Source of the DNA: Olivibacter jilunii
Lineage (GTDB): Bacteria; Bacteroidota; Bacteroidia; Sphingobacteriales; Sphingobacteriaceae
Direction: 5' to 3'
Length of the DNA: 64,000 nt
Assembly: GCF_900607235.1 (NCBI RefSeq)
Contig: NZ_LR027850.1
Location: 248,001 to 312,000 of the forward strand
Every line of letters starts with the position of its first letter. Positions within the stretch are counted from its first letter, which is position 1. Positions 2,509 to 12,572 of the stretch are shown in pieces. The notes below the pieces were generated by a model. That model saw nothing but the letters and a program-made list of their open reading frames with translations, was not told the origin of the DNA and did no database searches. Made by a program: the position numbers and the translations under genes.

Positions 2509-3597
2509 ATGAATGAAGAGATAAAAATTTTATACTTGGATGATGAAGTGAACAACTTGGTTGCATTTAAAGCATATTTTCGACTGGATTATCAGATTTT
2601 TGTTGCTGAAAATACAAACGAGGCACTTAAAATATTGGAAGAGCACCCTGATCTGCGAATTATATTTACAGATCAACGGATGCCGGACAAATTGGGTACA
2701 GATTTTCTGGATGAGATTCGAGTAATTTATCCGTTACCGGTTAGAATTCTGCTAACAGCTTATACGGACGATTTAAATACCGCAATAGATGCGATAAACA
2801 AAGGTAATGTTTATCGTTATGTGAAAAAGCCGTGGTCGGTTGAAGCAATTTCAGCTGTTATAACCGATGCCAATAGGTATTATTTAACGAACTCATTGCT
2901 ATCTGTAAAGAACAGAGAATTAGAACAAGCTTATAACGAACTGGATAAATTTGCTCATAGTGTAAGCCATGATATCCGTGGGCCGTTAGCAGGCATAATG
3001 GCCGCTGCTCAGCTGGCACAAGATATAAGTGATCTTAGTGAAATTGGTGAACTTTTGCAAATAATAGTCAATTCTGCCGAAAAGCTTGATCGCTATATTT
3101 TGACAATACACGACTATTACAGTGTCCGGCGAGGTGAGTTTAATATCATGGATATCGACCTTAACACCTTAGCTGACGATCTGCGGGTAATGTATGAAGC
3201 TATTGCGAACGCGAAAGGCATCCGATTTACAATAACGATCAATAACTCGGATGTTTTTAGGTCGGATGAGGTTTCTGTAAAGTTAGTGTTGAATAACTTA
3301 TTATCTAACGCCTTTAAATATCAAAAGAAGGATTACAATTACAAGTATGTGCACTTGGAAATGGGAGTAGAGCGAGGTGTTGCTACTTTTGTTGTAAAGG
3401 ACTCCGGAATAGGTATTCCGGAAAAATATCTAGGCGAGATTTTTAAGTTGTTTTTTAGGGCTACTTTGCTCGAGGCTGGTAGCGGGCTCGGACTTTATAA
3501 CGTTAAGAATATTTTAACGAAGTTAGGAGGGCAGATAATAGTGAACTCTGTTGAAAACGTTGGTACTGAGTTCGTTGTGGCCATTCCGACAAAGTGA
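2509..3597 (+). CDS. REC-histidine kinase (receiver at the N-terminus)
   Basis: Cytoplasmic protein of 362 residues with no membrane segment. Residues 1-120 form a receiver domain (Asp11/Asp12, phospho-acceptor Asp55 in IIFTDQRMP, Lys106/107 in YVKKPW). A short coil follows, then a HisKA dimerisation helix with His154 in SHDIRGP, and an ATPase domain (N box NNLLSNAFKY, DSGIGIP, GSGLGLYNVK). This order, receiver first, suits an intermediate in a phosphorelay that takes phosphate from another kinase. The start is set at the ATG (2509); the open frame begins with a TTG nine bases earlier. It is first in a compact run with the REC gene (51-bp gap), the ThiF-like gene, the GNAT gene and the 7TM kinase. 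Its receiver closely resembles the convergent REC protein at 8170-8634. Confidence 0.93.
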   Translation: MNEEIKILYLDDEVNNLVAFKAYFRLDYQIFVAENTNEALKILEEHPDLRIIFTDQRMPDKLGTDFLDEIRVIYPLPVRILLTAYTDDLNTAIDAINKGNVYRYVKKPWSVEAISAVITDANRYYLTNSLLSVKNRELEQAYNELDKFAHSVSHDIRGPLAGIMAAAQLAQDISDLSEIGELLQIIVNSAEKLDRYILTIHDYYSVRRGEFNIMDIDLNTLADDLRVMYEAIANAKGIRFTITINNSDVFRSDEVSVKLVLNNLLSNAFKYQKKDYNYKYVHLEMGVERGVATFVVKDSGIGIPEKYLGEIFKLFFRATLLEAGSGLGLYNVKNILTKLGGQIIVNSVENVGTEFVVAIPTK

Positions 3598-3648
3598 TTT
3601 AATGTTAGATGGAAAATTTGAATTGAATATTAATGTATTGTTAGATAA

Positions 3649-4047
3649 ATGAAATATCCTTTTATAGTTATTGATGATAGTCCGATCGATTGTCTCATTG
3701 TAAAGAAAGTGATTGGTTTTAGTGGAAAGAGCTCGGACGTAAAGGTTTTTAATGACGCTACACTTGCCCTTCAATACATAGAAAGTAACGAAGAAAGCCT
3801 AAGCGCGTCTATTTCTTTTATAACATTGGATATTATGATGCCGATCATGAATGGTTTTGAGTTTTTAGATAAATTTATAGATCTGCCAAAATCAATTCAA
3901 GAGCGCTATAAAATCATTATTCTCTCCTTGTCTAATAATGAACATACAATAAAAAGATTGCAGAAATACAAGGTAATAGAGGCCATTGTAGAAAAGCCTA
4001 TTACCATGGATAAATTCGCTGCGGTCATCGGGAAATTTCAAGAGTAA
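3649..4047 (+). CDS. Single-domain response regulator (CheY-like)
   Basis: Receiver domain only, 132 residues: Asp9/Asp10 (VIDDSP), phospho-acceptor Asp61 in FITLDIMMPIMNGFEF, a Ser/Leu switch region (IILSLS) and Lys in VEKPIT. There is no output domain, so it probably passes phosphate on or acts by protein contact. It matches the Bacteroidota Rcp-like class that commonly sits beside hybrid kinases. It lies 51 bp after the REC-kinase and 60 bp before the ThiF-like gene on the same strand, consistent with co-transcription. Confidence 0.92.
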   Translation: MKYPFIVIDDSPIDCLIVKKVIGFSGKSSDVKVFNDATLALQYIESNEESLSASISFITLDIMMPIMNGFEFLDKFIDLPKSIQERYKIIILSLSNNEHTIKRLQKYKVIEAIVEKPITMDKFAAVIGKFQE

Positions 4048-4107
4048 CGAAGATCGTTCATCAGATCTTGCATTATCTATATAATATAGGTGCTATAAAA
4101 TCATCAA

Positions 4108-5232
4108 ATGGGAGAAACACGACAAGAGGCCGTCGGGAATAATTTTCGGCCTATTATTTTTAGAAGAAGGCATCTTGAGGATAGCAAAGAAATGGATAAG
4201 TTATTGGCAATTGAAGGAGCCGTACAAATAATCGATACCATTGATATGCAGTTAGCTGAATTGATCAAGATCGAAAATCCGTCAGAGGGTTTCGATGAAA
4301 AGAAGCTCAGAACATATATAGATGCTTATATATATCCATCTTCATCTTTTGATTTTGGCGCATGGGTTTATTATCCCTGGTTAAATAAAATTATACATTT
4401 ATTGGATGAGCCTGAATTTGTAAAGGTTAGGACCAGCAGAAATATATATAAGATTAAGCCTGAAGAGATCAATGTGCTAAAGGAAAAGAAAGTAGGAATA
4501 GTTGGATTATCCGTTGGGCAAAGTATAGCATTGACTTTAGCAATGGAGCGGAGTTGCGGAGAGCTACGCTTGGCCGACTTCGATTCAATTGAATTAAGTA
4601 ATATGAATCGTATCCGTGTTGGTGTACAGGATTTAGGACAGAGTAAGGTTATTACTGCTGCAAGACAAATCGCCGAGTTAGATCCGTATATCAAAGTGCT
4701 TTGTTTTACGGACGGTTTAGATACCGGCAATATGGACCAATTCTTACTCGAAGGAGGAAAACTAGACATGCTGGTTGAAGAATGCGATGGTATTGACATT
4801 AAAATTATTAGTCGACTGAAAGCAAGAGCATATGGTATACCGGTAATCATGGATACAAACGACAAGGGTATGTTGGATATAGAGCGGTTTGATTTAGAAA
4901 GAGACCGCCCCATTCTTCATGGACGACTTCAAAAAATAGAAGGTTATACCATTCAAGACATGGAAGTACAACTAAAAGAACTGGACCTTGAGCAAAAGAT
5001 AGCGTATTTAGTGGATATAATAGGTTTTGAAAATGTTTCTGAAGCAATGAAACTATCACTCCATTATATGAAAAAAACCATCATTGGATGGCCACAGTTG
5101 GCCTCAGCTGTCACGTTGGGCGGCGCAATGGTTACTGATGTGGTAAGACGGGTGTTTCTTGATCAATTTAATGATTCAGGGCGGTATTTTGTTGATTTCG
5201 AAGAGTTAATTCATAACACTAAAGTTGATTAA
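4108..5232 (+). CDS. E1/ThiF/MoeB-like adenylyltransferase
   Basis: 374 residues. About 120 N-terminal residues have no recognised domain. A Rossmann-like E1 (ThiF/MoeB/HesA) fold follows: nucleotide loop GIVGLSVGQ at 130-138 in place of the usual GxGGxG, strand-end DFDSIELSNMNRI at 157-169 (Asp157/159, Asn165, Arg168), Lys180 in LGQSK, and Asp227 in EECDG. These are the ATP-binding residues of the family, which activates a carboxylate, classically the C-terminus of a ubiquitin-like protein, by adenylation. I see no CxxC zinc pairs and no obvious transfer Cys. No ubiquitin-like, E2 or JAB-protease gene is nearby, so the substrate is unknown. The stop is 2 bases before the GNAT gene, which implies tight coupling. 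Confidence 0.82.
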   Translation: MGETRQEAVGNNFRPIIFRRRHLEDSKEMDKLLAIEGAVQIIDTIDMQLAELIKIENPSEGFDEKKLRTYIDAYIYPSSSFDFGAWVYYPWLNKIIHLLDEPEFVKVRTSRNIYKIKPEEINVLKEKKVGIVGLSVGQSIALTLAMERSCGELRLADFDSIELSNMNRIRVGVQDLGQSKVITAARQIAELDPYIKVLCFTDGLDTGNMDQFLLEGGKLDMLVEECDGIDIKIISRLKARAYGIPVIMDTNDKGMLDIERFDLERDRPILHGRLQKIEGYTIQDMEVQLKELDLEQKIAYLVDIIGFENVSEAMKLSLHYMKKTIIGWPQLASAVTLGGAMVTDVVRRVFLDQFNDSGRYFVDFEELIHNTKVD

Positions 5233-5234
5233 CT

Positions 5235-5933
5235 ATGATCCATATACGAACTTTTAGAGCACCAGATGATCCGGAAGCATGCGAAAAGTTCATAATTGGA
5301 CATAGAAAATTATTGGAAATTTTTGGCATTAGCCAGATTACTTCTAATCGGCAAGATTGGGTGGACGATAGGGATACTATTGTTATCTTAGTAGAAAATA
5401 CGGAAACAAAAACGGTATATGGCGGTGCTCGCGTCCAAATGGCCAATAGTAAATATGCGCTGCCTATAGAAACTGCAATTGGAAGATATGATGCTAAAAT
5501 ATACGACCTAATACAACATGACCAAGCTCGTGGAGGAACTTGCGAAATTTGCGGATTGTGGAATTCAAGGGAAGTAGCTGGTATGGGAATCGGTAGTTAT
5601 ATTCTGTCGCGAGTTGGGGTCGCAATCACAAAGCAGCTGCCAGTTGTTAGTCTTTTTGTACTATGTGCACCTATTACAGTTAAAATGGGAATCCGATTGG
5701 GTTGTAAGGTAGAAAAGACGTTGGGGAACAATGGATTGTTCTACTATCCAAAAGATGATTTAATTGCGACCGTAATGCGTATGGAGGACATAAATGACCT
5801 GTCGTTAGCAACAGATCTGGAAAGGGAAAAAATTTTGTCTTTGCGAGACAGGCCCCACCAAGAAGTACTGGAGCGAGGCCCGAAAGGTGAGTATCCTGTC
5901 ACTTATGATCTCGTTATTCCAAATTTTCCTTAG
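5235..5933 (+). CDS. GNAT-superfamily acyltransferase, LuxI/FeeM-like layout
   Basis: 232 residues. A GNAT-type core is indicated by the V-A-G-M-G-I-G loop (114-120), which fits the acyl-CoA pyrophosphate-binding motif, followed by a helix. The order of conserved features also resembles acyl-homoserine-lactone and N-acyl-amino-acid synthases: Trp42, acidic cluster Asp44/45/47, Arg66 in YGGARVQ, and a strand LWNSRE with Arg112. The LuxI Glu before that Arg is not in register (Asn110), so the substrate class is not secure. It is cytoplasmic. It begins 2 bases after the ThiF-like gene and ends 28 bases before the 7TM kinase, so enzyme pair and receptor probably share a transcript. A role in making or modifying a small signal is inference. 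Confidence 0.72.
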   Translation: MIHIRTFRAPDDPEACEKFIIGHRKLLEIFGISQITSNRQDWVDDRDTIVILVENTETKTVYGGARVQMANSKYALPIETAIGRYDAKIYDLIQHDQARGGTCEICGLWNSREVAGMGIGSYILSRVGVAITKQLPVVSLFVLCAPITVKMGIRLGCKVEKTLGNNGLFYYPKDDLIATVMRMEDINDLSLATDLEREKILSLRDRPHQEVLERGPKGEYPVTYDLVIPNFP

Positions 5934-5961
5934 TCATGTAACATAAAAAAGACTGAAAGCA

Positions 5962-8196
5962 ATGAAAAACGTTAGTATCTTTTCGAAATTCAGAACTTTT
6001 TTAATACCTCTTGTCGTGCTGTTATGCCTTTGCAAAATAGGTCATACCTTCCAGCACGACCGTATAGTCAGATTTAGTGATGCGAGTAGCGAACTTTTAT
6101 TAAATCGTCATATTTCTATTTTTAAAGACGCTTCAAAGAAGCTGCCTATTAATTCCGTTAAGCAACAAAACTTTGCAGGTTATCCAAAAGACGGTATTAT
6201 CAATTTAGGAGCAACAAAAGACAGGGTGTGGCTAAAATTTACCGTTCAAAATGATACCGACGATGAAGATTTATATTTATTATTGCAGCAAGCAACAATT
6301 GATGAAGCCATTTTATTCCTTGAACATTCGAATGGTGACGTTTTAATCGATACTTTAGGAAAATATAAACCATTTGAGGAAAGAGCGGTTTATGCGCCCG
6401 ATTACATCTTTCCAATCAATGTGAAAAAGGCAAGTAACGCAACCATTTACCTCGGCGTTTCTTCAAACGATCAGATGCAGTTGCCTCTCTATATCGGCAG
6501 CAAGGAAGTCATCTCGACAAAAATGTCAACGAAAAACCTTTTGTTCGGATTGTATGCAGGGGCAGTGTTGATCATGATGCTGTATAATCTATTTATTGGC
6601 CTTTCTACACGCAACGGCAGTTATATCTATTATATTGTTTATATATTCACTGTAGGACTTACGCAGGCAATGTTTCAAGGATATGCTTATATGTATCTTT
6701 GGTCCAATAGCCCTTGGATGGCAAGTCGAAGTTCTATTATTATTCCCTTCCTTTCCGGTTTAGCCACGATCGCATTCATCAAGACTTTTCTACATACGAA
6801 AACAAATACCCCTAAACTCGATAAAGGAATTAACGTAATCGTTATTTGCTATTTCGTAGGTTTATTCATTGGCCTATTCGATGTTTTTCAGGGGGCCATC
6901 GTTTTGCAAACAATGGCCTCTTTGGGCATTATATATGTGATGTATGTCGTTAATCAGATCCGTAAAAAAGGATATAGACCGGCAGTTTTTTTTCTAATTG
7001 CTTTTACCTTGTTTTTTTCCTGTGTTATAGCGTTTGTTCTCCGTAATTTTAACCTAATTCCTTACAATGGATTCACCGCTTATATTCTAGAGATTGGTTC
7101 GATTGTAGAGATTTCATTACTTTCTTTTGCATTGGCTGATCGGATAAATTTCTATAGAAAAGAGAAGGAGGCATCGCAAGCGCAGGCGTTGCGAATATCA
7201 CAAGAGAATGCGAGAATTATAAGGGAGCAAAATCTATTATTGGAAACGGAAGTTGATAAACGAACCAAAGATCTGAAAAGAACTAATGAGAGTTTAAATG
7301 AGGCCATGTACAATTTAAAGCAAGCTCAGGCTCATTTGGTTGAATCCGAAAAACTAGCTTCATTAGGTATGTTAACTGCAGGCATTGCTCACGAGATTAA
7401 CAACCCAATAAACTTTGTAACCGGCAGTATAAAGCCTTTAAGTAGAGATGTGGATCAATTAATTGAGGCGCTGAAGGTTGTTGAGGAAATAGCATTCAAG
7501 GATATTCCCGAGGAGTCAAAGATTGCCGAGCTGGAGAGTTATAAAGAAGATATTGATTTAGCGTTCTTAAAAGAGGAGATTCAGTTATTATTAAAAGGGA
7601 TACAAGAAGGGGCTTTTAGAACAGCGGAGATCGTAAAAAGCTTACGGGTTTTTTCAAGGGTGGACGAAGACGACTTAAAACTGGCAGATATTAATTTGGG
7701 ACTTGAATCCACTTTAGTCATCTTAAACAGCATGTTTAAAGATAGGATCAACGTTAAAAGACATTACGATGAAATTCCATATGTGGAGTGTTTCCCGGGA
7801 AAGCTAAATCAGGTTTTCTTAAATTTGCTAACCAATGCCTTCCATGCCATTGACCAAAAATTCAAAGGAAAGCAAGGAGGGAAAATCACTATCAAAACGT
7901 ACTATAAGGACGATTTGGTATATATTTCTATAAAAGATAATGGGGTAGGGATAAAAGAAGAGTTGAAAGATAAAATATTTGACCCCTTCTTTACAACCAA
8001 AGATGTAGGAGAGGGAACGGGATTAGGTCTTGCAATCGTTTCACAAACGGTGGCGAAGCACCATGGTAGTATCTCCCTGGTTACTGAAGAAGGTAAGGGA
8101 TGTGAATTCATTATTAAGATACCCACAGTTCAACCAAATGATAATCAACTAAACAACGAAAATGTCCAATCAGGAGAGGAGTTTCTGTCGAAGTAA
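5962..8196 (+). CDS. 7TMR-DISM sensor histidine kinase
   Basis: 744 residues. A signal peptide (1-30) is followed by a periplasmic 7TMR-DISMED2-like beta-sandwich (about 40-185), where carbohydrate-like ligands are thought to bind in this family. Seven membrane segments span about 192-395. A long coiled coil (about 400-465) leads to a kinase core with His477 in AGIAHEINNPINF, N box NQVFLNLLTNAFHAID, DNGVGI, and a TGLGLAIV G box. The HEINNP class and the DPFFTTK motif are typical of the large sensor-kinase family HPK4. It has no attached receiver; likely partners are the REC protein at 3649, the REC-kinase at 2509, or the convergent REC at 8170. It is the last gene of the run; its 3' end overlaps the convergent gene by 27 bp. 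Confidence 0.93.
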   Translation: MKNVSIFSKFRTFLIPLVVLLCLCKIGHTFQHDRIVRFSDASSELLLNRHISIFKDASKKLPINSVKQQNFAGYPKDGIINLGATKDRVWLKFTVQNDTDDEDLYLLLQQATIDEAILFLEHSNGDVLIDTLGKYKPFEERAVYAPDYIFPINVKKASNATIYLGVSSNDQMQLPLYIGSKEVISTKMSTKNLLFGLYAGAVLIMMLYNLFIGLSTRNGSYIYYIVYIFTVGLTQAMFQGYAYMYLWSNSPWMASRSSIIIPFLSGLATIAFIKTFLHTKTNTPKLDKGINVIVICYFVGLFIGLFDVFQGAIVLQTMASLGIIYVMYVVNQIRKKGYRPAVFFLIAFTLFFSCVIAFVLRNFNLIPYNGFTAYILEIGSIVEISLLSFALADRINFYRKEKEASQAQALRISQENARIIREQNLLLETEVDKRTKDLKRTNESLNEAMYNLKQAQAHLVESEKLASLGMLTAGIAHEINNPINFVTGSIKPLSRDVDQLIEALKVVEEIAFKDIPEESKIAELESYKEDIDLAFLKEEIQLLLKGIQEGAFRTAEIVKSLRVFSRVDEDDLKLADINLGLESTLVILNSMFKDRINVKRHYDEIPYVECFPGKLNQVFLNLLTNAFHAIDQKFKGKQGGKITIKTYYKDDLVYISIKDNGVGIKEELKDKIFDPFFTTKDVGEGTGLGLAIVSQTVAKHHGSISLVTEEGKGCEFIIKIPTVQPNDNQLNNENVQSGEEFLSK

Positions 8197-8634
8197 AAAT
8201 TCCAATTGTTCATTGGTAATGGACAATAACTGATTCTCATCTTTCATCTTTTTCTTTTCCAAATATAACTGATAGGCTTTTTGAATTGTACTATCCAACT
8301 CTTCTTCATTCCAAGGTTTGGTGAGATAATGAAAAATCTTTCCCTTATTAATAGCATCAATAACAGCAGCCATATCCGTATAGCCGGTTAAAAGGATGCG
8401 AACGGGGTCGGGGTGTGTCTGTATGATCTGCTCGAGGAATTCAACACCGGTCATCCTAGGCATTCGCTGATCGGTTATGATAATATCAAACTCTAGATTC
8501 TTAAGTTTTTCAATCGCCTCTAAACCACCAATGGCTGTTTCAATTTTATATCTGGTTCTAAAAGTAGCTTTGAAAGAGATCAAATTGTGTTCCTCGTCGT
8601 CGACAAAAAGGATTCGAATTTTCTGCGGTTCCAT
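8170..8634 (-). CDS. REC-domain response regulator with coiled-coil tail
   Basis: 154 residues. The receiver has Asp12/Asp13, phospho-acceptor Asp55 in IIITDQRMP, Thr in LLTGYTD and Lys in YLTKPWNEEE. The sequence resembles receivers found in front of HD-GYP or kinase domains, and particularly the receiver of the REC-kinase at 2509. The last 30 residues form a charged coil rather than an output domain. It is convergent with the 7TM kinase, and the two coding ends share 8170-8196. It probably serves the same phosphorelay, but that is inferred from proximity. Confidence 0.88.
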   Translation of the reverse strand: MEPQKIRILFVDDEEHNLISFKATFRTRYKIETAIGGLEAIEKLKNLEFDIIITDQRMPRMTGVEFLEQIIQTHPDPVRILLTGYTDMAAVIDAINKGKIFHYLTKPWNEEELDSTIQKAYQLYLEKKKMKDENQLLSITNEQLEFLLRQKLLS

Positions 8635-8870: not shown

Positions 8871-9941
8871 ATGGAGAAAATCAAAATTTTAGTGGTGGGT
8901 TGCGGTAATATGGGGGCTTCACATGCCAAAGCCTATCATTCGATGGATAAATTCGAGATTTGCGGATTGGTTTCCACCGGTAAAAGTAAAGAAGTGCTAA
9001 ACCGGGAACTAGGTGGTTTGTATGAGCTATATGACAAATATGAAGAGGCCTTGCGTTTAGCAAAACCGGATGCTGTTTGCATAGCTACTTACCCCGATAC
9101 GCACGAAGACTTTGCGATTAAGGCTTTTCAAGCAGGATGTCACGTTTTTATCGAGAAACCTTTAGCAGATACCATTGATGGAGCAGAAAGGGTAGTGGCT
9201 ACAGCCAATAGATATAATAAAAAACTAGTTGTCGGTTATATTTTGCGCTATCATCCTTCTTGGGAGATGTTTATTGAGCAAGGGAGGAAGCTTGGTAAAC
9301 CCTTGGTAATGCGCATGAATTTAAACCAGCAAAGCCACGGTTACATGTGGAAAGTACACCAAAATTTAATGAAAAGTTTAAGTCCTATTGTCGATTGCGG
9401 TGTGCATTATATTGATGTTATGTGCCAAATGACAGATGCGAGGCCTGTTCAAGTAAGTGCGATTGGCGCAAGGCTAACTCAGGACATTCCTCCGGATAAT
9501 TACAATTATGGCCAGCTGCAAATTAAATTCGAAGACGGATCAGTAGGTTGGTATGAGGCGGGTTGGGGACCGATGATAAGCGAGACGGCCTTTTTCGTAA
9601 AAGATGTAATTGGGCCGAAAGGCTCTGTATCGATCGTTGCGAAGGAAGCATCAAAAACCGGAAAATCCGATGCCGTAGAGTCGCATACAAAGACCGAGTC
9701 TCTTAAAATACATAACGCTCAATTAGATACAGATTACAACTTTGTTCACAGAGATACTTTGGTTAATTTGGAAGATGAACCTGATCACCAAGAGTTGTGT
9801 AATAGGGAACAGCGATTTTTCTTGCAGGCTATACTTGAGGATTTAGATTTAACAAAAGCTAATATCGACGCCATCAATAGCTTACGGATTGCTTTGGCAT
9901 GTGATGAATCCGTAAAAACAGGAAATATTGTCCGTATGTAA
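8871..9941 (+). CDS. Gfo/Idh/MocA-family oxidoreductase
   Basis: 356 residues. An N-terminal Rossmann fold carries VVGCGNMGASH (GxGxxG-type dinucleotide loop near residues 8-15). The family signature FIEKPLA holds the catalytic Lys of the EKP motif, and GYILRYHPSW follows. The C-terminal domain is the usual alpha/beta sheet domain with DCGVHYIDV containing the expected Asp and His. Family members oxidise or reduce sugars and sugar acids with NAD(P). The substrate cannot be told from the sequence. It sits alone upstream of the MBOAT/SGNH pair and may act on a sugar of the same polymer, but a 197-bp gap separates them. Confidence 0.88.
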   Translation: MEKIKILVVGCGNMGASHAKAYHSMDKFEICGLVSTGKSKEVLNRELGGLYELYDKYEEALRLAKPDAVCIATYPDTHEDFAIKAFQAGCHVFIEKPLADTIDGAERVVATANRYNKKLVVGYILRYHPSWEMFIEQGRKLGKPLVMRMNLNQQSHGYMWKVHQNLMKSLSPIVDCGVHYIDVMCQMTDARPVQVSAIGARLTQDIPPDNYNYGQLQIKFEDGSVGWYEAGWGPMISETAFFVKDVIGPKGSVSIVAKEASKTGKSDAVESHTKTESLKIHNAQLDTDYNFVHRDTLVNLEDEPDHQELCNREQRFFLQAILEDLDLTKANIDAINSLRIALACDESVKTGNIVRM

Positions 9942-10138
9942 GGTGTATTCACGTACAAAGTTATTCCTTCATTTTATTATAATAAATGGTTTAGAGGTTT
10001 CCATAGATAATTTGAGAATAAATGTGATGTAAGGCAACATAAAATGTACGTTCGGGGAAGAATGGTTGGTAGGCGTCCTAAATAACTTTAATATTGTTCT
10101 CGCTGAAATAAGATTTTATTAACTAAAGCGGTGACAAT

Positions 10139-11596
10139 ATGTTGTTTAACTCCATCAGCTTTGCTGTTTTTCTACCAATTGTTTTCATTCTCTATTGGTT
10201 TGTTGTAAACAGGTCTCTTAAGCAACAAAATATACTTTTGTTGATCGCAAGTTATTATTTTTATAGTTGTTGGGACTGGCGCTTTTTGTTTTTACTTGCT
10301 TTTTCTACTTTTCTCGACTACTTCTCCGGCTTGGCAATTCATCGTGCCGAAAGTCAGAAAAGTAGAAAATTTTGGCTTATTTTAAGTATAGGAATCAATC
10401 TAGGCTTTCTCGCATTCTTCAAATATTATAATTTTTTTGTAGAGTCGTTCGCTGATCTCGTTGGCCAGTTTGGGTTTAATCCGAATATATCGACGTTGAA
10501 CATTATTCTGCCTGTTGGCATCTCTTTTTACACCTTCCATGGATTATCTTACGTACTGGATATTTATAACAGAAAGATCGAACCTAGCACGAATTGGGTG
10601 CATTACTCGTTGTTTGTCAGTTTTTTTCCGCTCCTGGTAGCGGGGCCAATCGAAAGGGCCACGCATTTGTTGCCTCAAGTAGAGAGAAAGCGGAACTTTG
10701 ATTATACGCGAGCTGTTGACGGATTGAGGCAAATTCTTTGGGGCTTTATTAAAAAAATCGTTATTGCGGATAATTGTGCGGAATATGCAAATATGATTTT
10801 CAACAATTCATCCGCTTACTCCAGTGGCGTGCTAATCATAGGCGCTGTTTTATTCGCATTTCAAATCTATGGCGATTTCTCTGGTTATTCTGATATTGCC
10901 TTAGGGGTGGCACGGCTGTTTGGTTTTGAACTTTTAAAGAACTTCAACTTCCCTTACTTTTCGAGAGATATTGCCGAATTTTGGCGCAGATGGCATATTT
11001 CCTTATCGTCATGGTTTAAGGATTATCTATATATACCCTTAGGAGGCAGTAGAGGAGGTCTATGGATGAGCATACGCAATACATTTATCATATTTTTAGT
11101 AAGTGGATTCTGGCACGGCGCGAATTGGACGTTTATAGTTTGGGGCGGATTGAATGCGCTCTTCATTATGCCGTCTATAATTTTCAGGACGAACCGGTCG
11201 AATCTCGATATTGTTGCTAAGGGACGTTTGTTCCCTAATTGGCGAGAATTGCTCCAGATAGCAACTACGTTTATTTTAACGGTGCTGGCGTGGATCTTTT
11301 TTCGAGCCGCAAGCCTCGATCATGCCTTTAGTTATATTGGCGGGATATTTTCACATGTTGGAGATGGATATATTCCTTTACAATCGAACGAGTTAAGAGG
11401 TACCTTCATTTGCTTCCTGCTCATTATACCATTTGTCATGATAGAATGGCTTGGGCGAGAACAGAATTATGCAATCGAAAAAATCGGCTTTATTTGGCCG
11501 AGAATCATAAGATGGTCTTTCTATTCTATCATGCTCTTTGTCATCTTGATGTATATGCAAACAGGAGGAACAGAGTTTATATATTTTCAATTTTAA
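10139..11596 (+). CDS. MBOAT-family O-acyltransferase (AlgI/DltB-like)
   Basis: Integral membrane protein of 485 residues with about ten to eleven hydrophobic segments. It carries the MBOAT hallmarks: WRRWHISLSSWFKDYLYIPLGG in the conserved cytoplasmic region (with the first His) and SGFWHGANWTF with the catalytic His326. Family members move acyl, usually acetyl, groups across the inner membrane to O-acylate polysaccharides. The next gene starts one base after the stop and encodes an SGNH-like membrane-anchored protein, the usual partner that completes transfer outside the membrane. The target polymer is not known; the exopolysaccharide cluster at 31-43 kb is one candidate. Confidence 0.93.
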   Translation: MLFNSISFAVFLPIVFILYWFVVNRSLKQQNILLLIASYYFYSCWDWRFLFLLAFSTFLDYFSGLAIHRAESQKSRKFWLILSIGINLGFLAFFKYYNFFVESFADLVGQFGFNPNISTLNIILPVGISFYTFHGLSYVLDIYNRKIEPSTNWVHYSLFVSFFPLLVAGPIERATHLLPQVERKRNFDYTRAVDGLRQILWGFIKKIVIADNCAEYANMIFNNSSAYSSGVLIIGAVLFAFQIYGDFSGYSDIALGVARLFGFELLKNFNFPYFSRDIAEFWRRWHISLSSWFKDYLYIPLGGSRGGLWMSIRNTFIIFLVSGFWHGANWTFIVWGGLNALFIMPSIIFRTNRSNLDIVAKGRLFPNWRELLQIATTFILTVLAWIFFRAASLDHAFSYIGGIFSHVGDGYIPLQSNELRGTFICFLLIIPFVMIEWLGREQNYAIEKIGFIWPRIIRWSFYSIMLFVILMYMQTGGTEFIYFQF

Positions 11597-11597
11597 C

Positions 11598-12572
11598 ATG
11601 AAAAAGTTCTTCATATCCTTAATTGCTTTTGCTGGAGTCGCATGCATTATTTGTTGCTTGGGAATCATCGCTTTTGGACGCTTTGTTCCCTTTTCCGTTC
11701 GATCAAACTTACCTTATGTTTTGGGCGGCGTGGGGTATTCTTACACAAGATTTAACGAAGCGAAAGAAATTGATAGAAATGTAGATGTGCTTGTTGTGGG
11801 ATCCTCTCATGCTTATCGTGGTTATGATCCTCGAATTTTCGAGCAATATGATTGGAAACTCTTTAATTTAGGCTCTTCCGCACAAACACCTGTTCAAACT
11901 GCATACCTATTCGATAAGTATATTGCTAAATTCAGACCTAAATTGGTTGTTATTGACGTTTACCCCGTTCTGTTCAAATCCGATGGGATAGAGTCGGTTA
12001 TAGATTTGGTTTCAAATGGCGAGCTTGATGAAGAGCTCGTACGTTTAAGCGTTGCTCAAAATAATATCAGTGTGTATAATACGCTGTTTTATAGAGCTTT
12101 TGCAGATGCTTTTGGATTCAATAAAGGTTTTGTTGAGAAGAATCCAAGCAGCACCGGCGACTTGTATGTTTCAGGTGGATATGTAGAATCAAAGGGCCGT
12201 TTCAAAGGAAAGAAAGAATTTAAAGCAACGAGTTATTCTTTTCTGCCAAATCAGGTCGATGCGTTTGAACACATCATTGCGAAAATGCGGCAACGGAATA
12301 TTCCCTATATCATTCTACAATCGCCTATTCCGCAGGCGAAATATGCACGTGTTACCAATAATGCCTATGCTGATGCATTTTTTTCTAAATATGGCTTTTA
12401 TAGGAATGCGAATGAAGTATTAAAGTTGCCTGATAGTTGCTTTTTGGATGAAAGCCATTTAAATCAATGGGGTGTTAATCGATATAATGAATATGTGGTT
12501 AATTTGATAGAGGAAAAGGGGTATTTGAACGTGAAGAAGAGGGAATATCGATTCGCTTCTAAATACGAATGA
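11598..12572 (+). CDS. SGNH-hydrolase-like membrane-anchored protein
   Basis: 324 residues with one N-terminal membrane anchor (about 5-28) and an extracytoplasmic domain. VLVVGSSHAYRGYDP supplies the SGNH block-I Ser, and the late LDESHLNQWG gives the Asp-x-x-His pair, so a catalytic triad is plausible. By family and by its one-base spacing from the MBOAT gene, it is likely the periplasmic acetyl-transfer partner (AlgX/AlgJ- or PatB-like role). Similarity to named members is too weak for a gene symbol. Confidence 0.75.
   Translation: MKKFFISLIAFAGVACIICCLGIIAFGRFVPFSVRSNLPYVLGGVGYSYTRFNEAKEIDRNVDVLVVGSSHAYRGYDPRIFEQYDWKLFNLGSSAQTPVQTAYLFDKYIAKFRPKLVVIDVYPVLFKSDGIESVIDLVSNGELDEELVRLSVAQNNISVYNTLFYRAFADAFGFNKGFVEKNPSSTGDLYVSGGYVESKGRFKGKKEFKATSYSFLPNQVDAFEHIIAKMRQRNIPYIILQSPIPQAKYARVTNNAYADAFFSKYGFYRNANEVLKLPDSCFLDESHLNQWGVNRYNEYVVNLIEEKGYLNVKKREYRFASKYE

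Follow-up and report, generated by a model that had tools for sequence, protein, structure and literature searches.

The acyl-oxazolone systems OxzAB (Pseudoalteromonas rubra), TyzACB and TrzAS (mycobacteria) are built on one plan, an acyltransferase of the FeeM/LuxI fold adjoining a ThiF cyclase. In TrzS, which is the protein Rv1355c, ATP-dependent cyclisation of an N-acyl tryptophan is followed by desaturation in a flavin domain (PMC12856293). The same paper calls the physiological role of bacterial acyl-oxazolones a major unresolved question, and raises the possibility that they act as signals, given the shape of the molecules and the c-di-GMP neighbours (PMC12856293). I describe here an operon of Olivibacter jilunii, contained in a stretch of 64,000 nucleotides (contig NZ_LR027850.1, positions 248,001 to 312,000; "the window" throughout), in which an acyltransferase of that fold adjoins a cyclase of the same subfamily, in company with a 7TMR-DISM sensor histidine kinase and REC proteins. 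The operon probably both produces and detects a lipophilic amino-acid signal, as a self-contained module of signal and receptor. The strongest evidence for this view is the joint swap, among relatives, of the enzyme that follows the acyltransferase (the tailoring enzyme) and the sensing half of the kinase, an observation not visible to the preliminary description of this DNA, which was made from its letters alone.

The window departs from the oxazolone systems in its kinase and REC genes, in the exchangeability of its tailoring enzyme, and in one omission. The known systems possess an oxidase, as do 70 of the 109 ThiF loci in the window's own family, where it is fused to the cyclase. The window and 38 other family loci have none, and since the oxidase is missing, the window does not hold a full oxazolone synthetase system.

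The other close parallel is phcBSRQ of Ralstonia, which encodes a methyltransferase, a sensor kinase, a REC protein with a kinase but no DNA-binding domain, and a single REC protein; in Phc, a fatty compound with its carboxyl group capped as a methyl ester serves as the signal (PMC8578825, PMC6989110). The window too brings a signal enzyme, a sensor kinase, a REC-kinase and a single REC into one operon, a likeness of layout. It differs in that the REC-kinase and REC genes stand first, in the addition of an acyltransferase, in a kinase whose input is a 7TMR-DISM module, and in having a cyclase rather than a PhcB-type methyltransferase. The slot that PhcB would fill is held by ThiF in the window and by a class I methyltransferase in 21 relatives. 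A search for PhcR and PhcB among plasmids gave general REC, kinase and methyltransferase matches, with no Phc operon among the matches listed. The operon may well work like Phc, but with no methyltransferase in the window and parts matched by layout alone, I do not count it among the Phc systems.

LuxI-type synthases and FeeM share the fold of the window's acyltransferase; here, however, the proposed receptor is a membrane kinase and an acyl-homoserine lactone (AHL) product is not expected. Stieleriacine-type clusters place an acyltransferase beside a ThiF protein, as the window does, but they include a nitroreductase and give dehydrotyrosine products, and the available part of their description mentions no kinase (PMC12479983). 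N-acyl alanine methyl esters are the kind of product to be expected from the methyltransferase-type relatives; they come from another phylum, and the abstract of that work names no receptor (PMC11580390).

The cyclase, P0001, was at first taken for an E1-like adenylyltransferase, within a set of genes for which no described system was known. The E1-like assignment stands (Pfam ThiF, 64.7 bits against a cut-off of 28.1), but the chemistry is already known, being that of oxazolone biosynthesis as set out in two reports (PMC10404671, PMC12856293). Against the NCBIfam model NF005901, "Rv1355c family protein", P0001 scores 436.6 bits over model positions 5-342 of 722, which is below the curated cut-off of 476 bits, the second half of the model being missing. 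It is 38% identical to a Mycolicibacterium protein of the Rv1355c family, and its invariant D227 aligns with MoeB residue 130, which I take to be the catalytic aspartate of MoeB. The model match, the identity and D227 place it among the ThiF-like cyclases of the OxzB/TrzS subfamily: judged by its sequence, it corresponds to the cyclase half of the Rv1355c/TrzS/OxzB oxazolone synthetases and lacks the half that holds their flavin oxidase. A ubiquitin-like role, or one in molybdenum cofactor or thiamin synthesis, was considered and rejected; those models reach at most 58 bits, compared to 437 for the Rv1355c family. A plasmid of Streptomyces sp. NBC_01471 (L238, 5926-7724) carries a 388-aa ThiF gene that overlaps a GNAT gene of another subfamily (PF13302), with neither oxidase nor kinase alongside, a minimal pair of cyclase and acyltransferase in Actinomycetota.

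Might the oxidase reside elsewhere in the genome? The ORF (open reading frame) of P0001 has no oxidase part, and the oxidase query P0011 (Pfam nitroreductase, 30.6 bits) matched nothing in the window genome, though a distant flavoenzyme could still act. The pathway should therefore stop at the saturated stage, barring an unrelated oxidase. A strong match was found in 0 of the 29 ThiF-only genomes searched (29 of 39, the window's included), where two weak hits of about 20% identity scored 23 and 29 bits. All six fusion genomes serving as positive controls, among them the genome that supplied the query, matched with scores from about 154 bits upwards. In vitro, the cyclised but non-oxidised intermediate is reported to have piled up when oxygen was limiting or when the oxidase site was altered (PMC12856293).

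The acyltransferase, P0002, is a different case. The "GNAT/LuxI-like" label first given to it holds at the level of fold and fails by sequence: scans of Pfam and NCBIfam at E 0.1 gave no match, so that its likeness to the LuxI-type synthase family lies in fold alone. An AlphaFold2 model built with 46 sequences (predicted local distance difference test 93.1, predicted template modelling score 0.90) found FeeM as its top structural match in both fold searches. In VIA-align, FeeM came first (Z 17.2, root-mean-square deviation 2.5, 172 residues), but by the program's criterion a small GNAT, 1xeb (Z 16.5, 145 residues), ranks equal to it; ElaA (Z 15.8) and the AHL synthases RpaI, LasI and BjaI (Z 15.0-15.6) come next. 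Sequence identity to the LuxI-type and FeeM structures is 8-14% in the alignments listed. TyzA is reported to have FeeM and BjaI as structural homologues (PMC10404671), and since both are among the best matches of P0002, the fold fits an acyltransferase of the OxzA/TyzA/TrzA type. The sequence link to mycobacterial TrzA is weak: in a search of a small set, P0002 matched (E 1.1e-6) a protein encoded next to an Rv1355c-family gene of Rhodococcus, and the hhalign probability is 41%; in a Mycolicibacterium locus (L239) the gene after the Rv1355c-family gene has no Pfam acyltransferase match. From its model, P0002 is predicted to be an acyltransferase of the fold shared by N-acyl amino acid and AHL synthases.

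The domains of the kinase, P0003, all stand well above their Pfam cut-offs (given in brackets): 7TMR-DISM_7TM 164.3 bits (29), 7TMR-DISMED2 89.6 (22), HATPase_c 87.8 (26.4). DISMED2 occupies residues 49-178, the 7TM region 192-394, and the kinase follows, with H477 in the motif AHEINNPINF. A fold search with the model of the full protein returned kinase-type matches only among the 50 listed, and nothing on the 7TM pocket. The five same-strand genes, separated by 51, 60, 2 and 28 bases, are as the preliminary description had them, and its domain calls for the REC-kinase, the REC protein, ThiF and the 7TMR-DISM kinase agree with Pfam. Absent from that description was the convergent gene for P0006, which shares 27 bases with the 3' end of the P0003 gene and is the sixth member of the conserved neighbourhood. 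A REC protein ending in [RK]QxLLS lies no more than six genes from the DISM gene in 117 of 130 loci, and this conserved tail is possibly a docking tail.

How widely the arrangement is conserved was judged from a draw of 250 genomes, all the listed ones of the window's own family. A ThiF match at E 1e-20 occurs in 109 of them, and all 108 ThiF loci other than the window's were fetched. Within these 109 loci, the acyltransferase is present by ORF label in 108, a REC-kinase gene in 104 and a REC-only gene in 107 (a count that lumps RECs of the P0005 and P0006 types), and the distances between the operon's genes are, at the median, small or negative. The one locus lacking an acyltransferase (L085) seems to be an artefact of the ORF filter: no ORF appeared even after a second fetch (L270), yet a profile search finds the gene in that genome. 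The DISM kinase is near the enzyme pair in 107; of the two others, one (L080) is cut by a contig end inside the DISM gene, and the second is taken up below. The REC-kinase usually lies downstream of the DISM kinase; among the loci listed, only the window and Olivibacter sp. XZL3 have it upstream. Starting instead from the acyltransferase, a profile search finds it in 130 of the 250 genomes, with a DISM gene in the same neighbourhood in 129. The operon is patchy; in a draw from the phylum, 13 of 395 genomes have the acyltransferase.

In other Bacteroidota families, the DISM kinase accompanies 7 of 7 ThiF loci, or 9 of 9 if two loci with an ICMT-type enzyme (see below) are added. A scan of named genomes, keeping the best 80 of 542 relatives, finds it in 74; this set shares genomes with the family draw, so the counts are not additive. 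Hosts include Pedobacter, Mucilaginibacter, Chitinophaga, Niabella and Sporocytophaga. Four of the six misses are contig ends (L176, L205, L211, L228), and the true ones are Dyadobacter flavalbus (L164), with ThiF and acyltransferase alone, and L217. Conservation is therefore far from confined to this one genome, and the co-occurrence in Bacteroidota that the preliminary description proposed to look for recurs across families. Chance adjacency of enzymes and kinase was considered too and is ruled out: the window genome has 6.7 Mb and two 7TMR-DISM genes in total, and the neighbourhood recurs in several families.

It was also asked from the outset whether the enzymes turn up in contexts free of kinases. 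Within Bacteroidota the link holds, but three annotated actinomycete plasmids carry a ThiF gene with no DISM kinase beside it, and L164 and L217 add to these. The link to the kinase thus belongs to the Bacteroidota operon, not to the enzyme family. L217 is itself odd: the record, titled Brevibacillus borstelensis, has at 8914-10098 a lone ThiF gene 50% identical to P0001, with no acyltransferase or kinase nearby, possibly the result of transfer or contamination. In Niabella ginsengisoli (L186) the operon has an unlabelled acyltransferase and a DISM gene in pieces, which suggests decay or sequencing frameshifts.

The partner enzyme of the acyltransferase proved to be interchangeable, and this is new. 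The DISM sensor half, used as a query, had close matches in genomes with no ThiF, and comparison of the lists by eye divides the 130 acyltransferase genomes into 109 with ThiF and 21 without. All 21 ThiF-free loci have, between acyltransferase and kinase, an S-adenosylmethionine (SAM)-dependent methyltransferase of 254-273 aa (Methyltransf_25/11/31 in the four scanned by Pfam); the DISM kinase is present in 21 of 21 and the REC-kinase in 20 of 21. The family therefore shows three tailoring types, ThiF alone (39), ThiF-oxidase fusion (70 by ORF labels, counting L053, whose oxidase is split) and SAM methyltransferase (21). This methyltransferase is within five genes in 0 of 196 ThiF loci, drawn from overlapping sets. 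In the phylum draw, 11 of the 13 acyltransferase genomes have ThiF and two, outside the family, have in the same slot a 213-aa membrane protein of the ICMT family (PF04140, 66 and 71 bits, cut-off 24). All of these types can act on a free carboxylate, by adenylation and cyclisation or by formation of a methyl ester. The class I methyltransferase presumably does so; its best named relatives are general methyltransferases. Of 20 DISM loci fetched, 17 have the methyltransferase operon and three (L257, L260, L261) do not. Two of these, L260 (G145, at a contig end) and L257 (G081), are extra DISM kinases in operon-bearing genomes, with no acyltransferase seen alongside, and are possibly extra receptors.

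Loci were labelled by tailoring type, and the label changes required were counted on a tree of each part. Of the 130 family loci, two were set aside because their acyltransferase or DISM gene carried no label (L085 and L096), and 123 of the remaining 128 have all four parts (20 methyltransferase, 37 ThiF, 66 fusion). On FastTree trees of these 123, the label of the tailoring type changes 4 times along the tree of the sensor half. The kinase half of that protein needs 18 changes, the REC-kinase 17 and the acyltransferase 11. In the IQ-TREE analysis, a single change of the methyltransferase label suffices for the sensor, where these loci form one clade (support 100); the kinase tree requires 8, and strong branches force at least 3 of these. 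A single methyltransferase clade is rejected on the kinase tree by the approximately unbiased test (p 3.3e-6), for which the group was set by gene content before any tree and the test picked after the counts. Adding other families (137 loci, with long branches) gives 7 changes on the sensor tree and 16 on the acyltransferase tree.

The same is observed within a single genus (g2; 18 ThiF and 18 methyltransferase loci), where the label changes 1 time for the sensor, 7 for the kinase and 3 for the acyltransferase. Mean identities between loci of the same label and of different labels are 0.46 and 0.23 for DISMED2 and 0.64 and 0.32 for 7TM, but 0.73 and 0.66 for the coil, 0.74 and 0.70 for the kinase, 0.78 and 0.70 for the acyltransferase, and 0.70 and 0.66 for the REC-kinase. 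In steps of 25 residues, the ratio of cross-label to same-label identity stays within 0.27-0.69 as far as residue 405 and within 0.88-0.99 beyond it, a break just past the end of the Pfam 7TM domain at 394. One pair makes the point: L135 (ThiF) and L259 (methyltransferase) are 82% identical in acyltransferase and kinase half, and 21% and 26% in the sensor domains. Even within label groups, similarity in the sensor goes with similarity in the acyltransferase when kinase and REC-kinase are controlled for (partial r 0.50, 0.67 and 0.68; 0 of 300 permutations as high).

I propose that P0002 moves an acyl group onto the amino group of an amino acid, a role suggested by its fold and family, and that P0001 adenylates the free carboxylate of the N-acyl amino acid with ATP, whereupon the amide oxygen would close the ring to an oxazolone. 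This second step I infer from homology to OxzB, TyzB and TrzS, whose cyclase step others have shown. With no oxidase half, the ring would stay saturated. The product would leave the cell or move in the envelope and bind the DISMED2/7TM half of P0003, which in turn would hand phosphate on by way of the REC-kinase P0004 and the single RECs P0005 and P0006, in an order that is conjectural; such a circuit could serve to sense cell density. In relatives, a methyltransferase would cap the carboxylate in place of the cyclase, and the sensor half would change along with it. The preliminary description had offered, as a simple model, a diffusible product sensed by the linked kinase, and that model gains support from the conserved linkage and from the co-variation of enzyme and sensor half, the signal function itself being inferred.

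A wider version of this proposal seems to me slightly favoured by the balance of evidence. Bacteroidota would possess a modular chemical language in which a common operon frame, made up of an N-acyl amino acid synthase, a kinase, a REC-kinase and RECs, takes exchangeable carboxylate caps, namely a cyclase with or without a desaturase, or a methyltransferase of class I or ICMT type, each swapped together with the DISMED2/7TM half. The window's word in this language would be a saturated acyl-oxazolone, and 7TMR-DISM kinases would be the receptors.

Several observations weigh against the signal-receptor proposal. DISMED2 domains are also thought to bind glycans, and a conserved transcriptional output gene is not evident at these loci. 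One locus (L096, genome G049) is a real miss: alone in the family draw, it has the acyltransferase and the ThiF-oxidase and lacks a nearby DISM kinase, and next in line is an ORF of 621 aa of no known kind. The tracking is clearest for methyltransferase versus ThiF, and by pair identity the fusion group shows little of it: at kinase identities of 0.7-0.8, fusion-fusion and ThiF-fusion pairs have DISMED2 identities of 0.23 and 0.24 and 7TM identities of 0.43 and 0.38, and at 0.5-0.6 the ThiF and fusion groups hardly differ. Several chemotypes may be mixed among the fusion loci. When all 123 loci are taken together, the sensor (0.34) and the kinase half (0.29) have similar partial correlations with the acyltransferase, and among methyltransferase loci a correlation (0.56) appears for the REC-kinase as well. 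Then there is the chemistry. According to the TrzAS paper, the cyclised intermediate was not detectable in strains with TyzA and the TyzB cyclase alone, TrzAS strains showed no cyclised saturated species, and tryptazolones were enriched in cells rather than in the supernatant (PMC12856293). A stable saturated oxazolone inside the cell is thus not assured. Stieleriacine-type clusters with ThiF and nitroreductase gave no observed acyl-oxazolones, and the role of ThiF there is called enigmatic (PMC12479983).

An alternative view is that the sensor and the tailoring enzyme travel together for no reason of function, their association being a by-product of recombination tracts that span neighbouring genes. 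The geometry permits it, and this too must be counted against a matched ligand: the sensor-coding end adjoins the tailoring gene in methyltransferase and many ThiF loci (the tailoring gene lies directly upstream in the methyltransferase loci and in the same-genus ThiF loci listed), so one tract could link both, and the cross-to-same ratio of the acyltransferase itself, at its end nearest the tailoring gene, drops to 0.66. The best available control for proximity is that same acyltransferase, on the other side of the tailoring gene. It is equally close and far less linked (within g2, 0.70 across labels and 0.78 within, compared to 0.23-0.32 and 0.46-0.64 for the sensor domains), and on the kinase side the break coincides with a domain border. 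Neutral linkage, which is compatible with the other readings, thus appears improbable as the explanation. A likelier rival, though still an unlikely one, is that the operon is a metabolite pathway under kinase control, its product an antimicrobial, a surfactant or an envelope lipid, with the DISM kinase regulating production in response to some cue unrelated to it, for instance a glycan or stress on the envelope. The resemblance of DISMED2 to carbohydrate-binding domains suits that idea. So do the stress-associated roles and antimicrobial N-acyl tyrosines discussed in the TrzAS paper (PMC12856293), and N-acyl alanine methyl esters that reach inhibitory concentrations (PMC11580390). An unrelated cue, however, gives no reason to expect a sensor half that changes with the tailoring enzyme beside a kinase half that does not.

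A kinase that guards the cell against its own product, or against competitors, would do better on that score. Here the kinase would detect a reactive acyl-oxazolone or a capped lipid as a mark of damage or of the lysis of kin, and trigger defence in place of group behaviour; a match between sensor and product is expected in this case too, and oxazolones do hydrolyse readily and react with alcohols (PMC12856293). But the methyl esters predicted for the methyltransferase type are, by general chemistry, not reactive acylating agents, and their operon is otherwise identical, which leaves the idea with a slim chance. Slimmer by some way is the chance that the enzymes modify proteins, P0001 activating the C-terminus of a protein or peptide and P0002 acylating proteins, with the kinases as regulatory bystanders. 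P0001 does belong to the E1 superfamily, many GNATs acylate proteins, and a small GNAT tied with FeeM, yet the nearest family of P0001 is that of the Rv1355c/oxazolone synthetases and not E1 or MoeB, the top structural match of P0002 is an amino-acid acylase, and replacement by a methyltransferase suits a small carboxylate substrate.

Neither the enzymes nor the receptor fold is new. Their joint occurrence, the interchange of caps and the interchange of sensor halves to match were not found in the searchable literature: a search that covered neither subscription journals nor preprints gave no publication combining 7TMR-DISM with ThiF and none describing the operon. The present analysis contributes a candidate receptor linked to oxazolone-type enzymes, and the co-variation of that receptor with the enzyme. 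With such enzymes tied to one candidate receptor in more than 100 genomes, the question of what acyl-oxazolones do becomes directly testable, and natural swaps of cap enzyme and sensor half supply ready-made pairs for tests of specificity. If the signal-receptor proposal is true, Bacteroidota have a linked synthase-and-receptor system, and 7TMR-DISM receptors have candidate ligands.

Table 1. Genes of the operon and its convergent neighbour, in window coordinates. The ORF list begins the P0004 gene at an earlier TTG, 2500.
Protein	Assignment	Coordinates	Strand	Length (aa)	Remarks and basis
P0004	REC-HisKA-HATPase protein	2509..3597	+	362	DNA-binding domain not found; PhcR-like layout; Pfam
P0005	Single REC protein	3649..4047	+	132	Pfam
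P0001	ThiF/E1-like adenylating cyclase (by homology)	4108..5232	+	374	NF005901 and MoeB alignment
P0002	Predicted N-acyl amino acid synthase	5235..5933	+	232	FeeM/LuxI fold; model and fold searches
P0003	7TMR-DISM sensor histidine kinase	5962..8196	+	744	Pfam
P0006	Single REC protein	8170..8634	-	154	Convergent; C-terminal RQKLLS

Scans of the window for promoters (18, compared to 22.3 in shuffles, standard deviation 4.8) and for terminators (8, compared to 4.3, standard deviation 2.1) gave results that were not used. Upstream of the operon, at 399-1031, lies a gene for a 210-aa REC protein that occurs also in Olivibacter sp. XZL3 (L032) and in no other locus listed; it reads as NarL-type and is possibly a local output gene. 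Downstream, at 10139-12572, an MBOAT acyltransferase gene is followed after a 1-base gap by a DUF1574 gene, an arrangement that resembles the pairs that O-acetylate polysaccharides.

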